DNA of 37,553 nt from Deltaproteobacteria bacterium (GTDB taxonomy: Bacteria; Myxococcota_A; UBA796; GCA-2862545): contig SBGP01000117.1 in assembly GCA_006226595.1 (NCBI GenBank), forward strand, positions 1 through 37,553. The letters are read 5' to 3'. A program made the position numbers and the translations under genes. Below, in pieces: positions 7,989-17,372 of the stretch. The notes beneath the pieces were generated by a model that saw only the letters and a list, made by a program, of their open reading frames with translations, made no database searches and was not told where the DNA came from. Each line of letters begins with the position of its first letter. Position 1 is the stretch's first letter.

Positions 7989-9191
7989 CTACGGCGCGTC
8001 CTCTTCGACGAGCTCGAAGCGACCGAAGTCGTAGGGCAGGCCCTCGGCCTCTTCGACGCGGACCAGGCGCTCGCGGCGTCCTCGCTCCGCCAGCGTGGTC
8101 GCGCGGTGGTAGCAGAACGGCATGTTCCCGCGCTTGCCCAGGGTGCAGTGCGCGGTGAACGAGCAACCGGCGCCGCACAGCTCACCGTACTCGCAGCTCG
8201 CGCAGAAGCCCCACAGCTCGTCGGTCGTGCGGTTCTGGATGAAGTTGAGCTCAGGGGCTTCGTGGAAGATCTGCTCGACGCTCAGGTCGCGGATGTTTCC
8301 ACCGACGTAGGGCGCCGTGGGCAGGCTCGGGCAGGCCTTCACCTTGCCGTCGGACTCGATGCCGATCTGGAACACGCCCGCCTGGCAGCCGGTCCAGTGC
8401 ATGGCCGACTTGCCGGGATGCGAGCGGAGCAGCACCTCGTGGGGCCCGTAGTAGCCGAGGTTGTTGCCGAGCATCACGTTGAAGATGCGGTTGGGGGGCA
8501 GGCCCTCGGCGTGGGCCTTCTGGGCGTAGCGCACCTGGATCGCGGCGATGTCGTCGATGACCTCGGGGATCATGTACGGCTCGAGGATCCACTCCGGCCG
8601 GTCCGCCGCGCGACCCATGGGCACGGTGAGCTGGCAGCGCCACACCCGCGCGCCCGCGTCGTGGAGGATGTCCGCGGTCTCGGCGAGTACGTCCTTGTTG
8701 AGGCGGTTGACCTGGGTGTTGGCGGTGACAGCCATGCCCGCGTCCCGGGCGTTGCGCATGCCGGCGAGGGCGGCGGCGTGGCTGCCCTTGCTGTCGCGGA
8801 GCACGTCGTGAGCCTCGGGCGTGCCGTCGACCGAGAAGCCGATGGCCTTCAGGCCGGCCCGCGCCATGGCCTTGGCGCGCATGGGGTTCACGCCGCGCCC
8901 GCCGGTCTGCATGGTCACGCGAATGCCGTGGTGGGTGAGGTGCGCGATGACCGCTTCGATGCCCGGGTAGAGGTACGCCTCACCGCCGATCAGGGTGACC
9001 TCGCGGGTGCCGAGGCGCGCAAGCTGGTCCGCGACGGCGAAGACCTCGTCCCGCGACAGCTCGTTCTCCCGCGGCTGCACCGCCCGTGACCCACAGTGGG
9101 CGCAGGCGTGGTCGCAGCGCATGGTGAGCTCCCACACCACGTACACCGGGTGGTTGCGGTCGGCGTCGGTGACGATGCGAGGGTGGGTCAA
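7989..9191 (-). CDS. Radical SAM/SPASM-domain enzyme
   Basis: About 400 residues. The radical SAM motif CDHACAHC (Cx3Cx2C; Cys26, 30 and 33 from the chosen start) binds the SAM-cleaving [4Fe-4S] cluster. GGEAYLY follows as the GGE motif. The C-terminal SPASM region has GCQAG, CPSLP, then FCASCEYGELCGAGCSFTAHC and a last Cys, enough to hold two auxiliary clusters. SPASM proteins typically modify peptides or act as anSME/PqqE-like maturases. No precursor peptide was found nearby. The start is a TTG with GGAG upstream; an ATG at 9242 and a TTG at 9251 lengthen the protein by 17-20 unlikely residues. The stop is one base past the TPR gene's stop. Confidence 0.85.
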   Translation of the reverse strand: MTHPRIVTDADRNHPVYVVWELTMRCDHACAHCGSRAVQPRENELSRDEVFAVADQLARLGTREVTLIGGEAYLYPGIEAVIAHLTHHGIRVTMQTGGRGVNPMRAKAMARAGLKAIGFSVDGTPEAHDVLRDSKGSHAAALAGMRNARDAGMAVTANTQVNRLNKDVLAETADILHDAGARVWRCQLTVPMGRAADRPEWILEPYMIPEVIDDIAAIQVRYAQKAHAEGLPPNRIFNVMLGNNLGYYGPHEVLLRSHPGKSAMHWTGCQAGVFQIGIESDGKVKACPSLPTAPYVGGNIRDLSVEQIFHEAPELNFIQNRTTDELWGFCASCEYGELCGAGCSFTAHCTLGKRGNMPFCYHRATTLAERGRRERLVRVEEAEGLPYDFGRFELVEEDAP

Positions 9192-9292
9192 GCAGGCTCC
9201 AGAGCTGGCGCACAGCCTAGCAGCCGCGATGGGCGGCGGCATGACCGGCAACGCCCCGTCCGTCGTGGGGTAGGCTGCTCCGCGGAGGATGC

Positions 9293-9742: not shown

Positions 9743-10735
9743 ATGCCACGCATGCTGTACATCGGCGCTTGCATTGGACGCGGTCAGTTCGGAGAGGTCT
9801 ACGAGGCCAAGCTCCAGACGGACGGTGGCCTGCTGCTGCCTGTGGCCATCAAGGTCCTGCACGGTCAGGCGCCCGCGGCGGCGGACGCCGTGTCCCGCTT
9901 TCGCGACGAGGCCCGCCTGGTCGCGGAGCTCGCGCACCCCGGCATCGCCACCGCCTACGACCTGTGCCGTGTCGACGGCAAGCTGGCGCTGATCACCGAG
10001 CTCGTGCGTGGGCCGGACATCGGGACCGCGACGACACGCTCGATCCCGCCGGTGCGGGCGGTACTCGAGGCCTTCGCGCAGGTCGCGAACACCCTGGCCG
10101 ACTGCCACGCGGCGCAGGACACCTTCGGCGCGCCGATGCGCATCGTCCATCGCGACGTGAAGCCATCGAACATCCTCGTCGACCGCACCGGGCAGGTGAA
10201 GCTCATCGACTTCGGAGTGGCGCTGTTCCAGGGCCCCGAGCGCCTGACGCGAAGCGTGGACAGCCACGTGATCGGCAGCTTGTCGTTCATGTCGCCCGAG
10301 CGCTTCGACCGCCGGTCCCGCGGACACGCCCGGTGGGACGTGTACGCCCTCGGAGCGAGCCTGTACAAGTGCCTCGCGGGGCGCCCGGTGATGGGCAAGC
10401 GCGGCATCGGCGAGGTCCTCGGGCTGGCGGGCAGCGCGATGATGTGGAACCAGCGCGTCGTCGGCGCGATGCGTGGCCTGCGCGAGGACGTGCCGCCGCC
10501 GGTGTGGTCCGTGCTCATGCGCTGCCTGCGCCACGAAGGCAAGGACCGGCCCTCGGCCGTCGAGGTGGCCGATGCGCTGGATGCCTCCGCGCGCGGCGTC
10601 GACGGCCCGGGGCTGCGCCAGTGGGCGCGCGACCTGCGCATGCCGCCCGAGATGCCTGACGCCGAGTTCTCGGGCAAGCAGTTCCCGGTGGGTCACCCGG
10701 ACGACTTCGAGCGCGACAACACCTCGGAGTGGTGA
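9743..10735 (+). CDS. Soluble bacterial Ser/Thr protein kinase
   Basis: 330 residues, all catalytic elements present. The Gly-rich loop is GRGQFGEVYEA (12-17), with ATP lysine VAIKVL (Lys37), a helix-C acid near Glu56, catalytic loop HRDVKPSN (Asp138, Asn143), DFG (156-158) and SPE in place of APE. By family knowledge (PknB/Hanks type) it phosphorylates protein Ser/Thr residues. There is no transmembrane segment or sensor domain; the last 60 residues are an unrecognised polar tail, so it is probably cytoplasmic. The substrate is unknown. Such kinases are abundant in Myxococcota. It converges on the glycosyltransferase gene. Confidence 0.9.
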   Translation: MPRMLYIGACIGRGQFGEVYEAKLQTDGGLLLPVAIKVLHGQAPAAADAVSRFRDEARLVAELAHPGIATAYDLCRVDGKLALITELVRGPDIGTATTRSIPPVRAVLEAFAQVANTLADCHAAQDTFGAPMRIVHRDVKPSNILVDRTGQVKLIDFGVALFQGPERLTRSVDSHVIGSLSFMSPERFDRRSRGHARWDVYALGASLYKCLAGRPVMGKRGIGEVLGLAGSAMMWNQRVVGAMRGLREDVPPPVWSVLMRCLRHEGKDRPSAVEVADALDASARGVDGPGLRQWARDLRMPPEMPDAEFSGKQFPVGHPDDFERDNTSEW

Positions 10736-10783: not shown

Positions 10784-12112
10784 CTAGCGCACGTGCCCAT
10801 AGATGCGCGCCAGCCAGCGGGTCGGCACTCCGCGTCGGTACAGGAACGGCAGCGTGTTCCACGCGATCATGGTCCGTAGAGGTCGGCGAACGAAGCGCCG
10901 CCCGGAGACCTGCACCCGAGCGTCGATGCGCGCGATCCGTCCGCGCTTGCGCAGACGCTCGGCCAGCGCCACGTCCTCCATCAGCGCGAGATCGGGAAAG
11001 CCGCCGAGGGACTCGAACACCTCGCGGCGCACGAACAGCGCCTGGTCCCCGTACGGATGGCGGGTCACGCGGCTGCGGAGGTCGGCGACGTGGAGCAGCG
11101 CCGCCCACGGCCTTGGTGCGCTGTCGTTGACCGTCCACGTGACGAAGGCGCCGGCCACGGTCTCCGGGTCGCGGAGTGCGTGGCGGACGTGGGCCGCGGC
11201 ACCGTGAGGCAGCACCACGTCGGCGTGCACGAACCACAGCACCTCGCCAGTGGCAGCGGCGGCTCCGGCGTTCATCTGTCGCGCGCGCCCGGTGTCGGCG
11301 AGGAGCACCCTCACGCCGTGGCGCTCGGCCCGGGCGACGGTGTCGTCGCGGCTGCCTCCGTCGACGACGAGGATCTCGTCGATGCCGGGCTCTGCGAGCA
11401 GTCGCTGCAGCGCCGCGTCGATGCGGGCCTGCTCGTCGAGCACCGGCAGGACCACGCTGATCGCGACAGGCAGGGGCCGCGCCTGCAGCAGCCTGGCCGT
11501 GTGGGGCGCGGACTGCGGTGTCTTGCGCAGGCGCGCGGCGAGCGCGCGCAGCTCGTGGGGCTCGTCGACGTCGAACCAGGGCTCGAGGAGGACGACGCGC
11601 AGTCCGTGTCCACGCAGTCGCTCGACGGTGCGCGCGCAGGTATCGGGCTGGCTCCAGGGGAGGTCCGCGAGCAGGCCCTCCGGGCACCGGGTGAGCCCGA
11701 GGAGGACGAAGCCACCGTCGTCCGCGGGCACCAGCACGGCGTCGGCGTCGTCGAGCGCGGCACGAGCGGCTTCGATGCGCTGGGGGCCGAGGTCGGGGGC
11801 GTCGGCCCCGATCGCGAAGGCCCGCTCACCGTGGTCGAGGGCTCGGCGCAGGGTCCGCTCGATACGCGCCCCGAGGTCGCCGTCGCCCTGGTCCCACAGC
11901 TCGGGCTCCGGAGACAGGCCAAAGCGCGACGGCTCCACCGAGGTGGTCGAGATGACCGCTCTCATCCCGTCACAGGCGTGCGCGTGAGCCCACGCGTCGC
12001 TCAGGAAGGCGTGGGCGAGCTCGGCGGCACGCTCCGCGCCCACCAGTGGGATCAGCCGTGTCTTCGCCCGGCCCGGCTCGGGGGGCTTCGCGAAGATCGC
12101 GGCCACGTCCAT
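10784..12112 (-). CDS. Two-domain glycosyltransferase: CofC/DUF2064-like plus GT2
   Basis: 442 residues. The N-terminal part (1 to about 205) matches the TIGR04282-type nucleotidyl/glycosyltransferase family: IFAKPPEPGRAKTRL, GADAPDL (102-108) and DDGGFVLLGL (131-140). The C-terminal part (about 215-442) is a GT2-like enzyme of the TIGR04283 type: ISVVLPVLDEQARI, VVDGGSRDDT (250-259), then FVHADVVLP and HPYGDQALFVRREVFE. In other bacteria these two families are often separate neighbours in arsenosugar-type cassettes (general knowledge); here they are one protein. The ATG overlaps the stop of the FAD oxidoreductase by one base (TGATG), so it is the last gene of a coupled operon. The sugar and acceptor are unknown. 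Confidence 0.85.
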   Translation of the reverse strand: MDVAAIFAKPPEPGRAKTRLIPLVGAERAAELAHAFLSDAWAHAHACDGMRAVISTTSVEPSRFGLSPEPELWDQGDGDLGARIERTLRRALDHGERAFAIGADAPDLGPQRIEAARAALDDADAVLVPADDGGFVLLGLTRCPEGLLADLPWSQPDTCARTVERLRGHGLRVVLLEPWFDVDEPHELRALAARLRKTPQSAPHTARLLQARPLPVAISVVLPVLDEQARIDAALQRLLAEPGIDEILVVDGGSRDDTVARAERHGVRVLLADTGRARQMNAGAAAATGEVLWFVHADVVLPHGAAAHVRHALRDPETVAGAFVTWTVNDSAPRPWAALLHVADLRSRVTRHPYGDQALFVRREVFESLGGFPDLALMEDVALAERLRKRGRIARIDARVQVSGRRFVRRPLRTMIAWNTLPFLYRRGVPTRWLARIYGHVR

Positions 12113-13614
12113 CAGCGGCGCCACGCGAGCAGCGTGCGCAGCACGGTCGCGGCGAGCGGGGTCAGGCGGGTGCGGTTGTACTCGCCGCCCAGTCGCTTGA
12201 GGACCATCGTCCGGGTCGGGTAGGGGAGGATCGTGTCGTTGAGTGCCGACAGCGGCAGGCCCTGGGTCATCGCCACGGTGACGGTGCCGATGAGCTCGCC
12301 CGCGTGGCGGCCGACGATGGTCGCGCCGAGGATGCGGCCCTTGTTGTCGGCGTACACGCGTGCGAAGCCCTGCGTCTCGCCCTCGAGCAGGCTGCGGTCG
12401 TTGCGGGACATCGGTGCTTCGAAGATGGACACGTCCGGTCGCCGCGAGGCCTCTTCCTGGTCGATGCCGACGTGCGCGAGCTCGGGCTCGGTGAACGTGG
12501 CCCACGGAATCACCAGGTCGCTGGCCTTCTTGAACCCGAAGAACAGCGCGTTCTGGAGGGCGACGCGGGACAGGGCATCGGCGGCGTGGGTGAACTTGAA
12601 CTTCGAGGCCACGTCGCCCGAGGCGAAGATCTTCGGGTTCGTCGTCTGCAGGTAGGCGTCGACCTCGATGCCGCCGCGGGAGAAGCGCACTCCGGCGGTC
12701 TCGAGACCCATGCCGTCGACATTCGGCGCCCGACCGACGGCGAGGAGCACGGCATCGCTGTCGAGCACCTCCTCGCGGCCGTCGCGCTCGACCACGGTGC
12801 GCGCGCCGCCGCTTGGACCGGGCTCGAAGCGCACCACCTTGGTGCTCATGCGCAGGGCGATGCCCTCGGACTCGAGCTGGTTGGCGACGATGGCCGCCGC
12901 ATCGGCATCATCGCCGTTGAGCACGCGAGGCGCCTGGTCGACGAGGGTCACCTGGGAGCCGAAGCGCGCGAAGGCCTGGCCGAGCTCGCAGCCGATGGGG
13001 CCGCCGCCGATCACCACGAGACGCGGTGGCAGCTCGGTGAGCTCGAACACGCCCTCGTTGTCGAGTACGTCGATGTCGTCGATGCCGGGGATGGGCGGGC
13101 GCAGGGCCCGGGCGCCGGTGGCGACGATGGCGCGCGCGAAGTCGAGGCGCACGCCGCGGACCTCGAGCTGCTCGGGCCCCGTGAATCGACCCTCGCCGAG
13201 GAACACGTCCACACCGGCTTCGGCGAGGCGTCGTGCCGCATCGTGGTGAGCGATCTCGGCGCGCAGGGCGCGCATGCGCCGCATCACCTCCGGGAAGTCG
13301 ACCTGGACTTCCCCTGTAAGCACACCGTACGCATGGGCCTGACGTGACGCGTGGGCCGCGTGGGCCGCGGCGAGCAGTGCCTTCGAGGGCACGCAGCCGT
13401 GGACGAGACAGTCTCCGCCGAGCCAGCGTCGCTCGACCAGCGCCACGCGAGCGCCCAGCCCGGCTGCCCCCAGCGCGGCGATCAGACCCGCGGTGCCACC
13501 GCCGACCACGACGAGGTTGTAGGTGCCGCTCGGCGTGGGCTGCAGCCAGTCCTCCGGGTGGACCTCGGCGGCCATCGCGCGGTTGTGCGCGTCGTCGGGG
13601 AGGATGTGGGGCAC
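12112..13614 (-). CDS. Mercuric-reductase-like FAD/disulfide oxidoreductase
   Basis: 500 residues of the pyridine-nucleotide-disulfide oxidoreductase class I. Visible are an FAD site VVVGGGTAGL (35-44), redox pair GGDCLVHGCVPSK (Cys69, Cys74), second Rossmann site VVIGGGPIGCELG for NAD(P)H, and FASGDV for FAD. The C-terminal dimer region has ILPYPTRTMVLKRLGG. The usual catalytic His-x4-Glu of lipoamide dehydrogenase and glutathione reductase is not apparent. No extra N-terminal HMA domain or C-terminal vicinal Cys of true MerA is seen, so mercury reduction is unlikely. The GTG start lies one base after the TVP38 stop, with GGAG upstream. Enzymes of this type are known fused to TVP38/TMEM64 proteins, consistent with this pairing. 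Confidence 0.85.
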   Translation of the reverse strand: MPHILPDDAHNRAMAAEVHPEDWLQPTPSGTYNLVVVGGGTAGLIAALGAAGLGARVALVERRWLGGDCLVHGCVPSKALLAAAHAAHASRQAHAYGVLTGEVQVDFPEVMRRMRALRAEIAHHDAARRLAEAGVDVFLGEGRFTGPEQLEVRGVRLDFARAIVATGARALRPPIPGIDDIDVLDNEGVFELTELPPRLVVIGGGPIGCELGQAFARFGSQVTLVDQAPRVLNGDDADAAAIVANQLESEGIALRMSTKVVRFEPGPSGGARTVVERDGREEVLDSDAVLLAVGRAPNVDGMGLETAGVRFSRGGIEVDAYLQTTNPKIFASGDVASKFKFTHAADALSRVALQNALFFGFKKASDLVIPWATFTEPELAHVGIDQEEASRRPDVSIFEAPMSRNDRSLLEGETQGFARVYADNKGRILGATIVGRHAGELIGTVTVAMTQGLPLSALNDTILPYPTRTMVLKRLGGEYNRTRLTPLAATVLRTLLAWRR

Positions 13615-13615
13615 G

Positions 13616-14287
13616 TCAGTCTCCGAGAGCGAGGTCGAGGCGGCGCCGGGCCATGCGCGTGATCTGCGCGGTCACGGCGACCGTGGCCACCAGTCCCACC
13701 CAGAACAGGATTCGTGACGCATCCGTGCGCTCGGGGGTGTCCGTGAGGCGCGCGAGGCCACGACCGATCCAGGTGTACACCAGCACGCCGGGCAACATGC
13801 CGACGAAGCTTCCGACCACGTAATCGCGCAGGCGAAGCGAGGTGGCGCCGAGCGCGTAGTTCGTCATGTTGAACGGAAACAGCGGCGAAAGGCGGATGAG
13901 GAGCACGGTGGTCAGCCCGCCCTCGGCGACTGCCGCGTCCACGGCGGCGAAGACCGGGCGCTCCGCCGTCCACGCATCGACGCGGTCGCGAAGCACGCTG
14001 CGCCCGAGCAGGAACGCGAGGCTGGCACCCAGCGTCGCGGAGGGCAGCACGATGGCGGTCCCCCAGCCCGGACCCCACACGGCTCCCGCGCCCACTGTGA
14101 GGACCGAGGCGGGCACGAGCAGGACGGTGGCGAGCACGTAGGCGAGCGCAAAGGCGAGTGCGCCCCCCGGGCCGGCTTCCCGCGCCCATGCGAGCAGGTC
14201 GGCCGACAGCTCGCGCACCGGCAGCAGCCACAGCGCGGCGAGCACGGCGACGACGAGCAGCAGCCACAGGGCGCGCTTCACGCTCAC
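13616..14287 (-). CDS. TVP38/TMEM64 (SNARE-associated) family membrane protein
   Basis: 223 residues. The N-terminal membrane helix is LWLLLVVAVLAALWLLPV; several more hydrophobic segments follow, with the family motif LIRLSPLFPFNMTNYALGA, then RDYVVGSFVGMLPGVLVY. By family knowledge (DedA/VTT superfamily) these proteins scramble or transport lipids or small anions in the inner membrane; the substrate here is unknown. The GTG start overlaps the DUF1499 stop by four bases (GTGA), an indication of translational coupling. The downstream FAD oxidoreductase is a known fusion partner of this family. Confidence 0.85.
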   Translation of the reverse strand: MSVKRALWLLLVVAVLAALWLLPVRELSADLLAWAREAGPGGALAFALAYVLATVLLVPASVLTVGAGAVWGPGWGTAIVLPSATLGASLAFLLGRSVLRDRVDAWTAERPVFAAVDAAVAEGGLTTVLLIRLSPLFPFNMTNYALGATSLRLRDYVVGSFVGMLPGVLVYTWIGRGLARLTDTPERTDASRILFWVGLVATVAVTAQITRMARRRLDLALGD

Positions 14288-14628
14288 TCCGCTTCGAGGA
14301 GCAGGCTCCGGAGGCGCTCCACGCGCTTGCGGTTCACGCCGAGGTCGCTGTTGCCGACGCGGGAGGCCGAGCGCACGTGGAGCACGTGGCCGTCCGCCTC
14401 GAGCTCGAGGTCGTCCACGAAGCGGAAGAAGCGCGTCCGGTACTCGATGCGCGCGTAGCCTTCGTCGCGCTCGGCGAGGTGGGAGCGCTCGATGGCGGTG
14501 GCCAGGGCGAGGGCCTGATCGAAGCCGCCGGGCGGCATCGGCAGGGGGTCGATGTACGCGGGGTGATCGCGGTCGGCGCGGCTGCTCACGCAGTTTGGCG
14601 TGCTCGGCGGCGGCGCGAGGCGGGTCAC
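14284..14628 (-). CDS. DUF1499 family protein
   Basis: 114 residues. The family pattern is clear: PNCVSSRA near the N-terminus, YIDPLPM, ARIEYRTRFFRFVDDLELE, then SASRVGNSDLGVNRKRVERL. DUF1499 proteins are small, mostly of unknown function. The GTG start overlaps the stop of the upstream 599-residue protein by four bases (GTGA), and its own stop overlaps the next GTG the same way. It has no signal peptide, in contrast to many relatives. Its place between the unknown protein and the membrane protein suggests a role in the same process. Confidence 0.8.
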   Translation of the reverse strand: MTRLAPPPSTPNCVSSRADRDHPAYIDPLPMPPGGFDQALALATAIERSHLAERDEGYARIEYRTRFFRFVDDLELEADGHVLHVRSASRVGNSDLGVNRKRVERLRSLLLEAE

Positions 14629-16424
14629 GAGGCCCCCGGACCGAGGACGATGGACTCGGCTTCGGGCCAGGCCTCGCCGCGGTTGCCGGGAATGTCTCGC
14701 CCTTCGGGATCGGTGACGAAGTTGCCCACCGCGGCGAAGGCCCGCTCGTTCGAGCCAGCCTCGCGGAACGGCGTGACCTGCCCACCCCGAGCAATCGCGA
14801 CCACGTCGTGCGGCCCGGCGCGCAGGTCGACGAGCGCGCCCTTCCGGGCGGCGTTGAGCAGCTGCTCCTCGTTGCCGATGGGGTCGGCGACCGTCTTCGC
14901 CTTGAGTGTCCACACGAGCAGCGAGGTCGGGTCACGGTCCGGGAACTGCTCGGCGAGTAGGTCGCGGTAGCCGTAGAACTGCTTGCCGATGTCGTTCTGG
15001 TTCACGGGACCCGCCATGAGGCAGATACCGGCGAGCAGATCGCAGTCCTCGGGCAGGTCGGTCACGCCCATGAGCTCGGCATACAGCGCGCTGCGCGAGG
15101 CCGCGGCCCCGACGGCGCGCACGCACTGGTCCCAGTTCAGGCCCTCGGCGTCGATCTCGGGGCGCGACAGTCCACAGATGTAGATGCGCTGACCGGCCAG
15201 CGCGAAGGCCTTGCGACCGCGGGCCGCGTTCTTCGAGAAGAAGCCGCCGGTCGGCAGGTCGACCCACAGCGGCAGGTTCTTGATCACGTCGTCGCTGATC
15301 GCGCCGAGCTCGCCGCGGATCTGGCGAATGCGCCGCTTGCCACCCGGGTGCAGGACGTCCACCCGCTCGAGCAGCAGCAGGTCCTTGGCCCGCTCGCGCT
15401 CGACCCCGGTCCAGTGCGCAAACGCGTTGTACGCCGCGCGCCCGCACATCACGGTGAGCTCGTCGGGCACGCGCATGTCCTGGCGCATCTGGTACGGCGC
15501 GGGGGCCGAGGGCTCGTGGTTGACGCCGGGCTGGATGCGCTCGCTGCGGAGCGACATGAGGTTGGCGCCGACCTTTTCCCACAGCGCATCCGGCAGGCTC
15601 ATCGCCTCGCTCTCGAGGGCGGTGCCCACCTGGGTGGCGAGCACCAGGTGCCAGCCGGCGAGGCGATCGCGACGGCCGATGCCGGACAGGGCATACAGCT
15701 CGTCGAGGATCGCCTTGTTCTCCTGGCGGCGCTCCCGGTCCGAGAACGGTGCCGAGAGCACCTGGGCCCGCCGGGTGCCGCGGCTCGCGATCAGCGCCGC
15801 GCGCTCCATGGCGTCAGCGAGGATGCCGATGTGCAGTTCCTTGAGGAAGCCAATCGTCGGGATGTCGTCGTGGAAGTGGCGGCGCTTGTCGTACAGGCGC
15901 TTGGGCACCGAGAGCAGGCTGCGCACGGGCCGGTGGCCGATGATCGTGAGCAGCGCCGTGAACGGCGTGCGGTAGGGCCGCGCGAAGGTGAGGTGCACGG
16001 CGGTCGCCCCGTCGAGCACGGGGGCCTCGAGGTGGGCCAGCTGCTTGAGAAGGGCGGTGACGCGCTCGGCATCGGCGCCGTCGAAGCTCACCTGGCGATG
16101 GCCGCGGAAGTTCGTCGACTGCCGGGCGGTGAGGACGCCGAGGCTCGTTTCCTCGAACAGCTCGTTGTCGGTGATCGGACCGGGCGCGCCGAACCCTGTC
16201 GGGCGGTCCAGCGCGAGCAGGGGAAGCACCTGGTTGGTCTCCTTGGCCGTCAGCGGGATGCGATGGCGGAAGCCGACGGGGGAGTGGCTGTCCAGGCGCT
16301 CTGGTAGGGAATAACGGTTCTTTCGCTCACCCTCCGCGGCGAAGCGGGCCTGGCGGCGGGCGCGGAGGGGCGTCGGCGGCGGTGCGATGGGCACGGCATG
16401 AAGCGGCTTGGCTGAGTTCGGCAT
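14625..16424 (-). CDS. Unrecognised 599-residue protein, first gene of coupled operon
   Basis: The start was taken at the ATG followed by PNSAKPLHAVPI; the frame is open further upstream but runs into the divergent nfu promoter region and gene. The protein is soluble and has a basic N-terminus (RARRQARF). Distinct segments are TARQSTNFRGHRQVSFDG, VHLTFARPYRTPFTALL, RHFHDDIPTIGFLKELHIG, VMCGRAAYNAFAHWTG and GPVNQNDIGKQFYGYRDLL. His pairs (RHFHDD, ELHIG) might bind metal, but this is a guess. No family was recognised. Codon use resembles the neighbours. Its stop overlaps the DUF1499 start, so it is translated with that gene. It is divergent from nfu with 105 bp between. Confidence 0.75.
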   Translation of the reverse strand: MPNSAKPLHAVPIAPPPTPLRARRQARFAAEGERKNRYSLPERLDSHSPVGFRHRIPLTAKETNQVLPLLALDRPTGFGAPGPITDNELFEETSLGVLTARQSTNFRGHRQVSFDGADAERVTALLKQLAHLEAPVLDGATAVHLTFARPYRTPFTALLTIIGHRPVRSLLSVPKRLYDKRRHFHDDIPTIGFLKELHIGILADAMERAALIASRGTRRAQVLSAPFSDRERRQENKAILDELYALSGIGRRDRLAGWHLVLATQVGTALESEAMSLPDALWEKVGANLMSLRSERIQPGVNHEPSAPAPYQMRQDMRVPDELTVMCGRAAYNAFAHWTGVERERAKDLLLLERVDVLHPGGKRRIRQIRGELGAISDDVIKNLPLWVDLPTGGFFSKNAARGRKAFALAGQRIYICGLSRPEIDAEGLNWDQCVRAVGAAASRSALYAELMGVTDLPEDCDLLAGICLMAGPVNQNDIGKQFYGYRDLLAEQFPDRDPTSLLVWTLKAKTVADPIGNEEQLLNAARKGALVDLRAGPHDVVAIARGGQVTPFREAGSNERAFAAVGNFVTDPEGRDIPGNRGEAWPEAESIVLGPGAS

Positions 16425-16529: not shown

Positions 16530-17372
16530 ATGGGCCTGTGGTCCGCCTTCAAGAGCGCGCTGGGCTTTCAGCCGTCCCTCGTCGTCGAGGAGCCGGGGCC
16601 GTTCGCGCTCACCGAGGCCGCCGAAGAGGCCGTGGCGGCGCTTCCCGAAGGACAGGTGCTGTTCGTTCGCGCCGTCCCGGCCCCGGTGGGCCACGTGGTC
16701 GCCGCCGAGTCCGGCCCCGACGCGCCAGGCTTCGAGCCCGTCTCCGAGCGTGTGCGCGTGCCGGCCCCCGACCTCGACGTGCTCGAGGGCATGGTCCTCG
16801 ACTTCGCCGATGGCCGCTTCCGTGCGCAGACCCACCTCGAGCTGCGCGCGCGTGAGACGCCCAACCCCGACGGCCGGCTCTACCTCGTGTCGCGCCCACT
16901 CAACCGCGGTCGGGCGCGCTTCTTCCAGGACGCGGACGGAGCCCACCCCCTCGCGGTCGCGCTGCTCGGCCACCCCGGCGTGAAGAGCGTGCTCTTCCGC
17001 GCGAACACGGTGACCGTGGTCCGCGAGACCGACGAGCCCTGGGATGGCCTCGACGCGCACGTGGACGTCAGCCTGCGCCAGTACCTGCTCCACTGCGGCA
17101 AGGCGCTCGCACCCGTGCCGCGCAGCGAAGCCGAGAACAGCGCCCTCGAGGAGCGCGTGCTCGAGATCCTCGAGGAACGCGTGCGCCCCCGCATCCACCA
17201 GGACGGCGGCGACATCGAGCTGCTCGAGGTGAAGGACGGCATCGTCCGCGTGCACATGGTGGGCGCGTGCAGCGGCTGTCCGGCGAGCACGCTGACGCTG
17301 AAGTTCGGCATCGAGCAGACCCTCAAGGAGCTGCTCGGCGACGAGATCGAGGCCGTCGAGCAGGTGGGCTAG
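16530..17372 (+). CDS. nfuA: Nfu-type Fe-S scaffold with degenerate A-type domain
   Basis: 280 residues from an ATG with strong SD GGAGGAGCC. Three parts are visible. Residues 26-105 resemble an A-type (HesB/IscA) fold but lack its cysteines. Residues about 108-182 match the Nfu N-terminal domain (ETPNPDGRLYL, HPGVKSVLFRANTVTVVR). Residues about 205-280 form the NifU C-terminal domain with GACSGCPAS (Cys247, Cys250), which holds a bridging [4Fe-4S] cluster between two subunits. By family knowledge it delivers clusters to apo-proteins in the cytoplasm. The symbol is given by domain likeness; E. coli NfuA is shorter. cvfB-like and upp-like genes follow in the same direction. Confidence 0.85.
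   Translation: MGLWSAFKSALGFQPSLVVEEPGPFALTEAAEEAVAALPEGQVLFVRAVPAPVGHVVAAESGPDAPGFEPVSERVRVPAPDLDVLEGMVLDFADGRFRAQTHLELRARETPNPDGRLYLVSRPLNRGRARFFQDADGAHPLAVALLGHPGVKSVLFRANTVTVVRETDEPWDGLDAHVDVSLRQYLLHCGKALAPVPRSEAENSALEERVLEILEERVRPRIHQDGGDIELLEVKDGIVRVHMVGACSGCPASTLTLKFGIEQTLKELLGDEIEAVEQVG

Follow-up and report, generated by a model that had tools for sequence, protein, structure and literature searches.

Two unrelated gene units, a thiol-redox module and an orphan protein family with a predicted nitroreductase fold, appear to be joined at a myxococcotal locus

Five contiguous genes and their junctions

The window analysed here is a stretch of 37,553 nucleotides from the genome of Deltaproteobacteria bacterium (GTDB phylum Myxococcota_A; contig SBGP01000117.1). 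Five genes follow one another on its minus strand. The first (16424-14625), designated the leader, starts with ATG and encodes a protein of 599 amino acids that has no Pfam match and belongs to a Myxococcota-wide orphan family. The second (14628-14284; GTG start) encodes a DUF1499 protein of 114 amino acids (PF07386) that falls into a small subtype without a lipoprotein-like N-terminus. The third (14287-13616; GTG start) encodes TVP38, a 223-amino acid TVP38/VTT (COG0398-type DedA) membrane protein that is a putative lipid scramblase or flippase. It is followed by the gene for a 500-amino acid FAD-containing pyridine nucleotide-disulfide oxidoreductase (13614-12112; GTG start), which resembles lipoamide dehydrogenase and MerA and has a CLVHGC active site, and by the gene for a 442-amino acid glycosyltransferase (GT) in which TIGR04282 and TIGR04283 domains are fused (12112-10784; ATG start). 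A Ser/Thr protein kinase gene on the plus strand (9743-10735) converges with the GT gene, lies ~50 bp from it, and marks the boundary of the module; a plus-strand gene for a NifU-C-like protein (16531-17372) diverges from the leader.

From the leader to the GT gene, the four junctions consist of a GTGA overlap, a second GTGA overlap, a 1-bp gap, and TGATG. All five open reading frames, with the coordinates, lengths, and junctions given by the original prediction, were confirmed on the minus strand, and the family names it had assigned to genes 2-5 agree with Pfam and NCBIfam profiles that score above their cut-offs. The start codon of DUF1499 aligns with the starts of its relatives, so the overlap with the stop codon of the leader is real. 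The junctions are real, yet they are no proof of functional unity by themselves, because the arrangement with the leader was found in one genome only. The locus is a clear example of the fact that gene overlap in one genome need not equal a conserved pathway.

A variable thiol-redox module in relatives

Profile searches assigned genes 2-5 to their families with scores of 99.3 bits for DUF1499 (PF07386; cut-off 22.6), 89.1 bits for TVP38 (PF09335; cut-off 33.9), 653.1 bits for the FAD oxidoreductase (NF004991; cut-off 620), and 159.9 and 211.1 bits for the GT (TIGR04282, cut-off 134; TIGR04283, cut-off 182). The FAD disulfide reductase is the hub of the module. Its redox-active CxxxxC site, GGDCLVHGCVPSK, aligns with GGTCVNIGCVPSK of MerA, which places the protein among the class I pyridine nucleotide-disulfide oxidoreductases. 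Homologues of this reductase (E <1e-80) are encoded in 20 of the 71 genomes of the class.

The genes for TVP38 and the reductase are adjacent in the window and in four relatives (L174, L249, L164, and L261), as had been anticipated in the original prediction; the genes for the reductase and the GT are adjacent in the window and in L174, L164, L163, and L153. All associations of TVP38 and GT with the FAD gene lie inside one taxonomic family. COG0398 DedA domains are known to be fused to this type of reductase and to follow aerobic metabolism (PMC10127716). The same two families are thus paired in the five genomes found here, but as separate genes rather than as the fusion described in PMC10127716, and in the window they are joined by a fused GT and by DUF1499.

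The association with DUF1499 reaches further. Genes for DUF1499, OhrR, and the FAD reductase form one overlapping operon in L252:6410-8678, L255:6065-8345, and L262:3306-5259, which represent three other genera (g30, g22, and g20) in two other families. The genome of the same genus as the window (L174) has the order DUF1499-OhrR-TVP38-FAD-GT. The FAD and DUF1499 genes co-occur in 13 cases against 7.3 expected (Fisher p 0.003). In 12 of the 20 genomes with a FAD homologue, neither DUF1499 nor TVP38 nor GT lies beside it, and the association is therefore patchy; because a number of neighbouring contigs break off close to the genes, the adjacency counts are lower bounds. Comparison of the genomes shows that DUF1499, TVP38, the FAD reductase, and the GT constitute a variable, putative thiol-redox module. 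DUF1499 had been regarded as new in this setting, a view that the DUF1499-OhrR-FAD operons of three further genera contradict.

OhrR offers a clue to what the module does. The OhrR proteins of the four relatives have NF052638 as their best family (135-187 bits, below its cut-off of 200 bits), that of L174 matches OhrR of B. subtilis at 1e-35, and all four have Cys at the position of the sensing cysteine. Elsewhere, in two genomes of one other genus, the FAD homologue is followed by a gene for an alpha/beta hydrolase-OsmC fusion (L253:2563-5335 and L256:3-3419). Ohr/OsmC peroxidases are reduced by lipoyl systems and LpdA; they rely on the former, and LpdA by itself can support the activity of Ohr (PMC8945050). 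A putative role of the module in organic-hydroperoxide and thiol-redox stress is best supported, because OhrR is part of the operon in relatives, an OsmC fusion lies beside the FAD gene elsewhere, and the reductase is akin to lipoamide dehydrogenase.

Two other assignments were weighed against this role. The closest solved structure to the FAD protein by sequence is MerA (1.6e-73) and a MerR-type regulator adjoins its homologue in L257, as might be expected if the protein were a mercuric reductase and the set a metal-detoxification operon. This is very unlikely. The protein falls below the cut-offs of the models for MerA and lipoamide dehydrogenase (355.7 bits for TIGR02053, which requires 454.45), has no Cys near its C-terminus, no C-terminal cysteine pair, and no match to the HMA domain, and four relatives have OhrR rather than MerR as the regulator. 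Biosynthesis of arsenosugars, arsenolipids, or other organometalloids, a lead that goes back to the original mention of arsenosugar-type cassettes, is less likely still. Both transferase domains known from arsenosugar biosynthesis score above their curated cut-offs in the one fused GT of the window. However, the best match to ArsS (TIGR04167) in the whole genome of the window reaches 59.6 bits against a cut-off of 300, in agreement with the original remark that no ArsS is visible; the GTs travel with TVP38 and the FAD reductase, and the recurring partner of the module elsewhere is the organic-hydroperoxide sensor OhrR. Arsenosugar synthesis was rejected, as no ArsS is encoded anywhere in this genome.

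The DUF1499 proteins of these operons are a distinct small subtype that scores 173-204 bits against its own profile while the next protein scores 131 bits, a gap that is only indicative, the profile having been built from the same five sequences. Most other DUF1499 proteins inspected are lipoprotein-like and occur in other contexts. The predicted model of DUF1499 (pLDDT 91.6) matches the folds of Flpp3, KA1, START/PYL, and DUF4468, tied at Z 7-9, with a best Foldseek E of 0.009; the model is confident but not diagnostic, and these matches single out no relative. In the literature we found only two papers that mention DUF1499, none in which it occurs together with TVP38, and no report that links its genes to the sensing of organic peroxides. 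This genomic link is one of two testable leads that replace the guessed arsenosugar-like pathway. In four genomes of genus g21 (L213, L215, L219, and L221), a transporter-like gene of about 573 amino acids and a radical-SAM-like gene (CNLACVMC motif) precede a DUF1499 lipoprotein-like gene in a conserved trio.

The leader: an orphan family with a predicted twin-lobe fold

The other lead is the leader itself, a member of a strongly conserved 600-residue family that is nameless in the domain libraries searched and has the predicted fold of a flavoenzyme. The 599-amino acid protein has no match in Pfam, NCBIfam, PHROGs, or the sequences of the PDB. Its homologues are encoded in 37 of the 71 genomes of the class and in 76 of the 284 genomes sampled from the phylum; the 76 loci in the genome collection are nearly all of Myxococcota type and include those of the cultured Lujinxingia vulgaris and Enhygromyxa salina. 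Almost all matches are full length, with identities of about 54-66% (80% within the genus), and the family, which is nearly always present as a single copy, has a mean column identity of 67% in an alignment of 61 members. No weak distant relatives were found in the genomes searched, and the family is therefore all-or-nothing.

The gene neighbourhood of the leader, examined for up to 10 kb as far as contigs reach, separates it from the module. At 75 loci outside the genus (L038-L112), no homologue of DUF1499, TVP38, the FAD reductase, or the GT was found near it at 1e-6. Leader and FAD genes co-occur in 9 genomes (10.4 expected), and leader and DUF1499 genes in 12 (13.5 expected); the presence of the leader is independent of the presence of either. 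These results bear on the reading that the five proteins form a true pathway, in which the leader flavoprotein, DUF1499, TVP38, the reductase, and the GT would work together in the synthesis or modification of a single membrane compound. The overlapping junctions of the window and the persistence of leader and module as divergent neighbours in the sister genome would fit such a pathway. Because of the lack of linkage at 75 other leader loci, the lack of co-occurrence, and a recurring partner of the leader that is a MaoC-like gene, we regard it as unlikely, and a conserved five-gene unit was rejected on the first two grounds. Membership of the leader in the pathway, as originally proposed, fares no better within the genus, where the sister genome has it divergent. 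The original proposal was to be given up if homologues of the five genes rarely occurred together in other genomes, and for the leader this proved to be the case. Judged from these gene contents, the leader is probably not a functional part of the module below it.

The recurring partner of the leader is a MaoC-like gene that lies immediately downstream on the same strand at 35 of 72 loci (L043, L045, L058, L068, and 31 others) and overlaps the leader in 28, an approximate count since starts came from a simple codon-usage caller. All 35 MaoC-like neighbours match PF01575. At seven loci, a gene within five genes of the leader encodes what we take to be a TesB-like acyl-CoA thioesterase.

An AlphaFold model of the leader based on the alignment of 61 sequences (pLDDT 87.5, pTM 0.91) has nitroreductases as its top Foldseek matches in the PDB (best E 1.4e-4). 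In VIA-align, MsAcg (2ymv) ranks first (Z 16.1; 282 residues; 3.5 A; model residues 80-547), followed by the two-lobed Ava_2154 (Z 12.4); dozens of single-lobe nitroreductases align with either lobe (residues about 59-355 or 264-546) at Z 9-12. The predicted model thus has a nitroreductase fold and, compared with 2ymv, two fused lobes in one chain. Sequence comparisons give a different picture. None of the 61 members matches PF00881, even at E 10; the profile of the leader family aligns with 15 nitroreductases from these genomes at an hhalign probability of <1%; and a profile search of the PDB returned chance-like matches only, such as Nup58 at E 0.007. An internal duplication of the two halves was considered and rejected at the sequence level (hhalign probability 0.3%, no signal), yet each half is predicted to fold like a nitroreductase. 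The model gives the leader the fold of a single-chain nitroreductase, whose mode of action it may share, but we do not count it as a member of PF00881; it is a separate, probably flavin-binding protein with a predicted twin-lobe nitroreductase fold. The conserved basic residues R293, R296, K508, and K510 are only suggestive of FMN binding or redox activity.

Acg and TyzC share a monomeric twin-lobe nitroreductase architecture, and TyzC is an O2-dependent N-acyl-tyrosine desaturase (PMC10404671). Like these FDO/Acg-type proteins, the leader is predicted to be a single chain with two nitroreductase-like lobes (residues 80-547), and its coupling to MaoC suggests lipid-type chemistry as in TyzC-type systems. 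Unlike them, it measures about 600 amino acids instead of 330-370, shows no PF00881 signal among 61 members and 11% identity, and no tyz-type neighbours were seen around it. By analogy, the leader, coupled to a MaoC-like hydratase in many relatives, most likely acts on an acyl or acyl-derived substrate, which it would oxidise or reduce as does the similarly built FDO-type desaturase TyzC. Such acyl chemistry is the most reasonable assumption because of the MaoC-like partner and the architecture of TyzC (PMC10404671).

Probable rearrangement and loss of the OhrR switch in the window

The sister genome (L037/L174) contains all of these genes, but its leader lies on the opposite strand, with 129 bp separating it from the start of DUF1499, and is transcribed in the direction that leads away from that gene. 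The kinase gene occupies the identical position beside the GT end of the module in both genomes. The NifU-C-like gene neighbours the leader in the window but the kinase gene in the sister genome, and its switch of sides is read from the two gene orders as the mark of a local rearrangement. The different order of the same genes in the sister genome, NifU-like and kinase markers included, could also reflect an assembly artefact in the window, with the leader inverted or wrongly joined. We consider this quite unlikely: the same gene set lies within 10 kb in both genomes, and the overlapping join leaves all open reading frames intact. The genus is represented by two genomes only, each assembled in >100 contigs. 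The sister's gene order appears to be the older one, because OhrR adjoins DUF1499 in three other genera; the direction of change is not provable from two genomes.

The operon in the window does not contain ohrR, which in four relatives separates DUF1499 from the gene that comes next in the module. Within the window's genome, the closest OhrR (59% identity) is encoded on contig C74 (L267:5781-6733), directly after and overlapping a glutathione-peroxidase-like gene. Upstream of this pair lies the perfect palindrome AATTGCGCGCAATT, which served as an outside yardstick in the search for operators. Sites like AATTGCGCGCAATT occur upstream of DUF1499 in L174 (2 mismatches) and L252 (3 mismatches), with a shuffle p of about 0.002 or less; upstream of DUF1499 in L255 and L262 there are other repeats, and the operator motif is weak. 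No site with 3 or fewer mismatches is present in the window, where the coding sequence of the leader occupies the region upstream of DUF1499. A scan for sigma-70 promoters and terminators returned nothing above chance. The simplest reading of these sequences is a loss of both regulator and operator from the module and its placement behind the leader, the promoter of which may now drive it in the window.

The module of the relatives resembles OhrR-controlled organic hydroperoxide resistance operons (ohrR-ohr and ohrR-gpx) in that it contains an OhrR with the sensing cysteine and an operator-like palindrome. It differs from them in its presumed target, a disulfide reductase and DUF1499 rather than Ohr, and the window differs further in having neither ohrR nor the operator-like site.

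We propose that two unrelated units, the thiol-redox module and the leader, were joined by local rearrangement, and, taken as a whole with the following mechanism, this account is probably correct. In relatives, the conserved cysteine of OhrR would respond to organic (lipid) hydroperoxides, which would derepress the operon. A dithiol for peroxidases would be regenerated, or oxidised thiols repaired, by the NAD(P)H-dependent disulfide reductase; TVP38 and the GT would work on the side of the membrane or lipid carrier, with DUF1499 as an accessory protein. In the window, the promoter of the leader would now drive transcription of the module's genes, and their translation would be coupled to that of the leader. 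Co-expression through the overlap of leader and DUF1499, and hence a new functional link in this genome, is possible.

The real novelty is the phylum-specific family with a twin-nitroreductase fold, together with the DUF1499-OhrR-reductase operon. More tentatively, and with less confidence than we place in the joining of two units, we suggest that the leader could represent a class of flavoenzymes so far unrecognised and restricted to the phylum, in which a single chain forms two lobes of the nitroreductase fold. Together with a MaoC-like hydratase, such enzymes would process an acyl substrate that matters to many Myxococcota. In this genus, rearrangement would recently have wired the leader to a lipid-peroxide/thiol-redox operon (DUF1499-TVP38-reductase-GT) whose OhrR switch it replaced. 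Beyond the kinase gene, near the operon but separate from it, the minus strand of the window encodes a radical-SAM-like protein with extra C-terminal cysteines (7989-9251).
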